64,000 bases of DNA from Glandiceps talaboti (Eukaryota; Hemichordata; Enteropneusta; Spengelidae), in contig NC_135564.1 of assembly GCF_964340395.1 (NCBI RefSeq), positions 13,024,391 through 13,088,390 of the forward strand, read 5' to 3'. This document shows, piece after piece, positions 51,301-54,300 of this stretch (position 1 is its first letter; each line of letters opens with the position of its first letter). A program made the translations under genes and the position numbers. The notes beneath the pieces are model-generated. The model was not told the DNA's origin, did no database searches, and worked only from the letters and a program-made list of their open reading frames with translations.

Positions 51301-54300
51301 TCTTGTATCTTATCATGTGTACACAATGTAATGTATACTCGATTACGTTCTCAGTTTGACCTATTAAAGCATTTAGCAAAGTACGTCGAGTTACCAGCAA
51401 AATGTCTGTCGTGAATGCCAATACGAAGTCTTCCCATGAATTTGGAATAGTGTTGAAAGAGAAGCAGAGAGAATGTCTGGAGGTTTTTTGCACTGGAAGA
51501 GACGTGTTCGCGATACTACCGACTGGTTACGGGAAGTCGATCATATATTACCTAGCACCCAAAGTCACCGATTTTAATCAAGGGTCAACAAGGTTCTATA
51601 ATTCTTGTTATTTCGCCTCTCGTTTCACGTGGTCGAAACACAACTTGCAAACCCCAGCACGTTCATGATCTTCTTTTCGTAACGGGACACAAAATAAGTC
51701 ACGTAAATAGGACGTGAAACGATCTTCTGTAGGAAACACGGATCGCCTTTTTTAGGGTGTAATTGTACACCACAGACGGCACACTCCGTACACGTAAGTT
51801 TGAATGTGGCGATCGTGGACTTTGTTGGCGTTTTACCGTCATCCATGACTCCGTTACATTTATTTCAAAACTGAACATGAAAATTTGAAGTACAAGTACG
51901 TTATTTTAGGAGAGTTTCAAACTAGTTTTATTGGTCATTATTGGTAATGTATATTGGCCTACACATGTGTGTGTGTGTTTATTTACGTGGTGGTAGTATC
52001 GGTGGTTATGCAAGTCAAATCCCAGAGCGGATGTCGCCGACCGAGTGATTGACATATATTACCATGGTAACATTCGCTCTTATCGCCTGACGTACAAGCT
52101 ATTCTACATATTTGATTTCTAATCTACATGGAGACCTCTGCATGACCTTCTAATCGCTAGTTCAGGGCGGGGCCCAAATCTTTTGAAGTGTCCGACATAC
52201 TAGTGCAGAGTAGTACAGTCGTGTGAGAGGAGGCCGGTGAGGGCGAAACGTCACGACGTATCTTACAGTCTAGTATACCCCCAATGGTACACACAGACAG
52301 GAAGTAGAGCACCACCATGGCAAATTTTGGAAAGGATTATCATGATATATAATTACAGTTTACCCTCTCACATGAATGTATTGGGGATTTTTTTTACTTA
52401 CTTGGTTTTAATGTTCCATAACTGCATACTACCTTGTCGACTTCCAAGTAACACTTTATTTAAATATGTACTAGGATGCACAATAGCTGAGATTTCAAAT
52501 GTCTTGGGGTCAAAGTTCATCTCTAAGTATAAATCTACCAAGAAAAAAATCAGTCAATAATTGTAACTATAAAACATGATATATCAGTTTACTAAGACAG
52601 AACATGTGGGTGAAAAAACACTGAGAACTTTGAACTTCTTAATTCATGTTGACAGTGTTTCCACAAAAATAAGATTTACAATGTTGTAATGGTATGACAG
52701 AAAACTCTATGACCACTTCAATGCTTCAGCATAACACGTACATACAACTGTGCACAAATCTGTCAATAGGGGACACTGACTTCAAAGGACTTGTTCAGAC
52801 AGACATTCTCAAACAGACACCATCACTTAGACTGTTACAATATACATATATCTTACCCATTAATTGGATGTCCTATGGCAGTATATGTGTATCTTACCCA
52901 TTGATTGGATGTCCCATGGCAGTATACATGTATCTTACCCATTGATTGGATGTCCTATTTCAGTATACATGTATCTTACCCATTGATTGGATGTCCCATG
53001 GCAGTATACATGTATCTTACCCATTGATTGGATGTCCCATTTCAGTATACATGTATCGTACCCATTGATTGGATGTCCCGTGACAGTATACATGTGTCGT
53101 ACCCATTGATTGGATGTCCCGTGACAGTATACATGTATCGTACCCATTGATTGGATGTCCAATGGCAGTATACATGTATTTTACCCATTGATTGGATGTC
53201 CCATTTCAGTATACATGTATCTTACCCATTGATTGGATGTCCCATGGCAGTATATATGTATCTTACCTGTTGATTGGATGTCCCATATTTTCAACACATT
53301 GGCTTCATCTACTGATATCAAATGACTGGCAAATGGAACTAATATATGTACATCTTTCTTGTGACCATGGTATATATTTCTCACCTGTGAAAAGTTAGTA
53401 TAAATATTGAATCAAATACTTAGATTTCTACTACAAATACAATGTACATTCAATCATCCTTGATCTGAAAATAACAGAAAAATAACTTCAATTTGTTATT
53501 ATGTGTATATTTTTGTCTGGCATAGCATCAATAAAGTTTAGTTAGTTAGCTAATACTTTACTGCAACAAAAGATATGATGCTATAGGTATACATGCAAAT
53601 TACATGAAGTGCCAATGAATGGACCATTTCCATGGAACGTTTTCCTATCACTTGATAAATATGTAAAAAAAAAGTATCTGATTATATTCCACATTTTTCA
53701 TATCAACAGCCACAGCTTACAATGCAATGTTATCTGTTAAAAATTACAATTCCACAACTCCATGCATTTTTGGAAAAGGCATGCCACAAGATAACGTTTT
53801 TACTAGATTTCAAAAATCATGAACACATACAGTATAAGATACTTCAATGCCCTTTGAAATAGATATAGAATACTACTTACCTGTTTGTTCCTTTCAAATG
53901 ATCTGATAACATTATTACATGCTGTATACACTAGATATGCATCCACTGCTAGACAATTGATGTTATCAGGATGGGCATCACCTAAAATATCAATAAATAC
54001 CATTTACTGCAATTACTGTCTTTGTAGCCTCACCTTCACTACATGTAATTAGAAATTTATCTGTTAATCATAACAGTGATATCTAATCATTTATAGTGAA
54101 TGGATTATGTTTTTTCTATCTGTCTCTTCTTTATATATAATGCATTTGTTCTATTTTTTATTGCAATTATAAGAAAAAACATTTTATGGATGCATTGCCA
54201 TTATTGGTGATTCAGGTGATAGTTCTTTGTTATTACATTTCTTTGTTTTCTCTTATTGTGTTATTGTGTGTGTGTGTGTGTGTGTGTGTGTCTGCCTGCC

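Follow-up and report, generated by a model that had tools for sequence, protein, structure and literature searches.

How the spliceosome tells a true 5' splice site from nearby sequences of equal quality is a long-standing question, and it is posed by a gene of the window analysed here, the whole 64,000-nt stretch of DNA from the hemichordate Glandiceps talaboti (contig NC_135564.1), in which the end of one exon and its donor are followed by ten tandem copies of themselves. Which of these donors is used, and what do the copies do there? The minus-strand gene was identified as WDR36/UTP21, with the human WDR36 chain in PDB as the first match. The joined window exons (Table 1) reproduced exactly P0001, the NCBI model of Glandiceps talaboti (897 aa) and the top hit from a 5.8-billion collection, and in this annotated protein model the outermost donor joins exon 4 to exon 5 and exon 20 to exon 21. 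Of its introns, 19/20 are GT-AG and one, intron 9, is GC-AG, with the donor CAG/GCAAGT at 48240/48239 (-); in sequences, here and below, the slash marks the splice junction. Intron 17 (42849-38664) wholly contains, on the other strand, a 741-codon open frame (39591-41813, +) that by eye looks RING/B-box (TRIM-like), a putative nested and apparently intronless gene.

Table 1. Coordinates of the genes, exons and repeat arrays discussed in the text (positions within the window).
Feature	Position	Strand	Details
AFG3L2 coding region (control, P0121)	19114..33128	+	15 exons, 14 introns
WDR36 coding region	36354..55069	-	21 coding exons, 20 introns; exact spliced match to P0001
WDR36 exon 4	53267..53384	-	118 nt, phase 1 end, true donor CAG/GTAAGA
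WDR36 intron 4	52535..53266	-	732 nt, of which 433 nt are array (410 decoy + 23 intron nt of unit 0)
Unit 0 (true unit)	53244..53284	-	18 nt of exon 4 + 23 nt of intron 4; junction 53267/53266
Ten 41-bp decoy units	52834..53243	-	TGG/GT at the donor position of each
WDR36 exon 5	52402..52534	-	acceptor cttggtag/ATTTAT
WDR36 exon 20	37290..37477	-	donor AAG/GTCAGT
Second array of exon tail + donor	37030..37340	-	TRF, 79-bp unit, about 3.9 copies

Analysis of the intron 4 region with TRF gave one array at 52841-53286, with a period of 41, 10.9 copies, 91% matches and 0% indels. Unit 0 reads GGGACATCCAATCAACAG/GTAAGATACATATATACTGCCAT, and after it ten units follow at exact 41-bp steps, without indels, down to 52834. 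The first-pass annotation had described ten copies of the exon tail and donor, each of 41 bp, with the true junction in the outermost copy; the TRF result and the unit layout bore out the copies, and the outermost junction is indeed the annotated donor. Each decoy shares 31-38 of the 41 positions with unit 0, and the lowest value (31) belongs to the tenth, the most diverged. The GT is intact in 10/10 of them, within GTAAG in six (units 1 and 6-10), GTAAA in one (unit 2) and GTACG in three (units 3-5). Units 1-9 have a mean pairwise identity of 0.917, unit 10, at the distal edge, is 0.78-0.85 identical to them, and unit 0, on the exon side, stands slightly apart in this one array tested (0.83-0.93). 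Unit 0 is set apart from every one of units 1-9 at just two positions, -3 and -2 of the donor, where it has CAG and they have TGG. When the array was used as a query against the whole 590 Mb genome, in a search where very common words were skipped and the best candidates alone were scored, a single match was obtained, and this corresponded to its own locus.

The same gene holds another such array, absent from the first-pass annotation, at the junction of exon 20 and intron 20. Its 79-bp unit contains the tail of exon 20 (KDFELAQAYLAQFLK), the donor AAG/GTCAGT and the start of intron 20, and copies of the donor recur at +79, +158 and +237 relative to the true donor. Arrays of this kind are already known, even if rarely reported, and WDR36 and the other G. 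talaboti genes described below are added cases. The name mirage was coined for tandem repeats that cross exon-intron boundaries in amphioxus, where, in the available text of the report, they occur in globin genes and Adh3, have units of 10-160 bp with splice signals in many of them, vary in copy number and have homogenised inner units, and where RT-PCR suggests regular splicing (PMC3087553). Further amphioxus mirages, in troponin C and PGBD5, are described in the accessible part of another report, which has splicing undisturbed (PMC3902484). The WDR36 arrays resemble them in having minisatellite-size units that span an exon-intron boundary and contain splice signals; both units (41 and 79 bp) fall in the published size range, and the homogenised inner units and diverged distal edge unit of the intron 4 array are a mirage trait. 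They differ in belonging to Hemichordata and not Cephalochordata, and in the genes concerned. Moreover, regular splicing is suggested by RT-PCR in amphioxus, whereas use of the outer donor comes from one annotated protein model in WDR36, and the arrays verified here are all on the donor side, while amphioxus has both sides. No report of mirages in hemichordates was found in the open-licence literature as far as its texts were available, the nearest paper treating mirages in lancelet.

To place these arrays against the rest of the window, 34 donors and 34 acceptors of WDR36 and AFG3L2 were scanned with 30 nt round each junction and a threshold of 22/30. Clear nearby copies were detected at 2/34 donors, ten at intron 4 and two above threshold at intron 20. 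No copies were found at the AFG3L2 donors in this 30-nt scan, and 0/34 acceptors had clear copies, with one weak 22/30 match alone. This match, at 31667-31696 (+), lies 99 nt upstream of the AFG3L2 intron 12 acceptor and may reflect an ancient duplication of the acceptor into two copies, or may have arisen by chance. In the window, TRF reported eight arrays with a period of at least 26, once overlapping rows were merged and shorter-period and microsatellite rows were left out; four of them are within WDR36 or AFG3L2, and 2/4 span a donor. A simple simulation with random placement of the founding unit generated at least two donor-spanning arrays in 2.5% of trials, and the figure was 0.037 when three intronic arrays of period 13-22, which span no junction, were added. 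The placement of arrays may be biased toward donors, 2/4 being somewhat above chance. Also present are an 89-bp minisatellite in AFG3L2 intron 7 (26436-26799) and a 56-bp one in WDR36 intron 7 (49770-49882), neither of which spans a junction, and, outside both mapped genes, a 26-bp array of 20.8 copies with the unit AATGACAACTTTCATTGGTCTAACGA (15111-15651).

The quality of the decoys was assessed with a donor matrix built from the other 32 of the 34 donors mapped in the window. The true donor of intron 4 scored 11.5, six decoys 7.98 and four decoys 3.9-5.5, and 10/10 decoys were weaker than the true site. Similarly, the pairing with the 5' end of U1 was -11.0 kcal/mol for the true site, -9.2 for six decoys and -5.3 to -6.5 for the other four. 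The six stronger decoys outscored 14 of the 34 real donors. In intron 20, 3/3 decoys scored equal to or above the true donor. Relative strength could thus explain the choice made at exon 4, but not that at exon 20, and the position nearest to the exon explains donor choice at both. The density of strong internal GT sites was 8.2 per kb in intron 4 (six sites) and 8.9 per kb in intron 20 (seven sites). No other intron of the 32 exceeded 6.5, a value due to one site within 153 nt; another had 5.0, and the rest gave 0-3.5. The difference between CAG and TGG could reflect selection, either for weaker decoys or for maintenance of a strong true site, which would go against the prediction of strict neutrality.

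With the annotated exons, splicing at the first intron 4 decoy would place the stop codon at residue 148 of 897, at the second decoy at residue 166, and at any of the third to tenth decoys at residue 159. The first in-frame stop is a TAA at the unit 2 donor, in agreement with the earlier observation that the frame is open for about two units past the donor. These stops lie 2.1-2.5 kb upstream of the final exon junction, and since the products are truncated with stops so far upstream, they are expected NMD targets. Use of the intron 20 decoys gives a stop at residue 858, located 49, 128 or 207 nt before the last junction, and the message with 49 nt might escape NMD. The first-pass annotation had proposed that the decoys could take up U1 snRNP, make donor choice less sharp or generate variable-length isoforms. 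Of the decoys, 6/10 do look like usable donors; variable-length isoforms are unlikely, because every intron 4 decoy would truncate the protein by residue 166. Productive variable-length WDR36 isoforms were consequently rejected, with early stops upon use of all ten intron 4 and all three intron 20 decoys.

Turri et al. reportedly found, in 1995, a minisatellite that provides splice donors in the human gene IFI6, or 6-16. According to a later source, two downstream repeat units of IFI6 act as donors and yield different isoforms (PMC4526556), which makes it the closest case with reported use of downstream donors. Like IFI6, WDR36 has donors within repeat units downstream of an exon; unlike the IFI6 isoforms, the products of all the intron 4 decoys would be truncated. 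Human genes in segmental duplications have variable internal tandem repeats at exon-intron boundaries, according to the passages available (PMC2812944), and these share with WDR36 the minisatellite expansion at exon-intron borders. As far as those passages go, introns were changed and alternative transcripts reported in the recent human paralogs, whereas the annotated WDR36 protein has the normal joints.

Next, the genome was scanned for three perfect donor motifs in tandem, and 19 arrays were taken, all of which were examined by script. Nine were on contig C1 and four were additional ones, both sets being among the matches listed, and six came from periods 41-42, whose full listing of 61 places corresponded to eight arrays, six of them new. 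The motif is strict, being present in fewer than three copies in either WDR36 array, and such arrays are therefore underestimated by this sample. In 5/19 arrays, the first tandem donor marks the end of a coding exon identified through homology. These are METAP2 (9.8e-14) and IARS1 (4.4e-7), both from PDB sequence comparison with a piece picked by eye, HGD (5e-9), the N-terminus of TTC21 (1.8e-13) and a PRDM4-type zinc ribbon gene (8.6e-7). Arrays L032, L033 and L040 probably follow exons as well, judging from exon-like open reading up to the first donor, with no firm match. No exon was recognised at 11/19 arrays, which were unevenly tested, with Pfam in some and by eye in others. Within the set of periods 41-42, 3/8 arrays were verified as exon-linked. 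The exon share at the start of the eight exon-linked arrays, as bounded by TRF, is about 9-37 nt and varies by locus, as random breakpoints would give. Decoys equalled or surpassed the true donor in score in all cases at METAP2 (23/23), IARS1 (3/3), HGD (4/4) and L033 (7/7), and in part at TTC21 (5/8), the PRDM4-type gene (5/7), L040 (13/25) and L032 (77/114). The WDR36 arrays, probably passive ones, are part of a recurrent class in the G. talaboti genome.

For the anchoring of these exons, a codon-based coding score was tried and rejected, as it failed to separate upstream from downstream flanks in the 19 arrays, and homology was relied on instead. Pfam was applied to the upstream flanks in one frame for L032, L033, L034, L036, L042, L045, L047, L046 and L040, and in three frames for L016, L022, L043, L041 and L046, while L035, L037, L038, L039 and L044 were judged by eye from the script layout; the stretch taken for L002 lay within the array itself and was discounted, and L046 was left out of the exon-linked count. 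The upstream flanks of METAP2 and IARS1 had no Pfam match. In a control with the downstream flanks of the HGD, TTC21 and PRDM4-type arrays, 0/9 frames had a Pfam match. Matches below the cut-off were taken as chance, namely Pox_M2 for L022 (E 0.0029), Zn_finger_prot for L033 (E 0.024), FAM163 beside the TTC21 match (E 0.0014) and two for L046 (0.06-0.09). Donor triples of period 20-50 occurred at 962+814 places versus 391+470 for the reversed pattern, with 30+31 versus 10+21 for periods 41-42 and 96+44 versus 35+25 for a longer donor motif, but such raw counts were discarded as a measure of frequency, because long arrays dominate them and the control arrays were taken uninspected.

Collectively, these data make it highly probable that the WDR36 array is a mirage minisatellite, i.e., a duplication across a 5' splice site that is largely neutral and is tolerated as the exon-adjacent donor wins. 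A short tandem duplication would have happened to span the exon 4 5' splice site, and slippage or unequal exchange would then have taken it to about eleven 41-bp units. The spliceosome would pick the outermost donor, next to the exon, and the whole array would leave with intron 4, so that the mRNA is normal; the array would have survived because its copies lie downstream of the exon. We infer the exclusive use of the outer donor in RNA from one annotated protein model. The decoys would be passive, latent donors whose use leads to a truncated, NMD-prone message. That they are instead active, recruiting U1 to slow or divert splicing, with array length tuning the share of message sent to NMD, or to block premature polyadenylation, seems to us quite unlikely. 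The six decoys that outscore real donors of the window, with a U1 pairing of -9.2 kcal/mol against -11.0 for the true site, the density of strong GT sites in introns 4 and 20, above that of the other 32 introns, and the truncation resulting from each decoy are all compatible with such activity; nevertheless, the normal joint is the only one in the annotated protein, all the intron 4 decoys are weaker than the true donor, and splicing is described as undisturbed for amphioxus mirages in the text available from both reports (PMC3087553, PMC3902484).

The remaining possibilities concern the origin of the array. A model of exon and intron gain through mirage intermediates was proposed for the amphioxus globins, in the available text of that work (PMC3087553), and by analogy a decoy exon tail with a new acceptor could become an exon; since units 1-10 have no polypyrimidine-AG acceptor evident by eye, and P0001 has no extra exon in intron 4, we regard the array as very improbable as an intermediate of this type. 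Tandem repeats are prone to mis-assembly, but an assembly or collapse artefact is extremely improbable, given that the units bear different substitutions, that the array is just about 450 bp within a 24 Mb contig and that similar arrays are found at unrelated genes of the genome. Finally, the insertion of a satellite or mobile element at the junction, with the end of the exon derived from it, is hardly credible: the genome search with the array returned, among the best candidates scored, its own locus only, and the 18 nt of exon code for WD40 residues that are conserved, WDIQS in G. talaboti and WDIHS in Ptychodera.

A mirage minisatellite in WDR36 extends the amphioxus type to a second phylum and bears on intron gain by tandem duplication. 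The METAP2 (23 decoys equal to or above the true donor), IARS1 and HGD arrays are natural templates for the rule of the exon-proximal donor, with no need for designed constructs. A broader proposal is that donor-spanning minisatellites are frequent and lineage-wide in this hemichordate genome, in dozens of genes or more, housekeeping ones included, and that array length tunes an NMD-coupled leak. We consider it unlikely; if true, it would offer a natural test of exon-adjacent donor choice among up to dozens of equal tandem donors.

The genome scan also brought up arrays of considerable length. The 46-bp unit at L032:1364-6812, with AAG/GTGAGT, is repeated about 118 times, and its tandem donors extend over about 5.4 kb; the open exon beside them looks TRP/polycystin-like, with matches below threshold (Pfam E 0.029, PDB E 0.13). 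At L041:3325-8453, a 38-bp unit occurs about 135 times, in many copies with AAGGTAAGTAT donors, and no exon was recognised alongside. At L040:1743-2790, tandem donors come after an exon with DPF repeats, EPS15-like by eye; its first ten decoys lie at multiples of 39 nt, which keeps the frame length, yet each 39-nt copy contains an in-frame stop.
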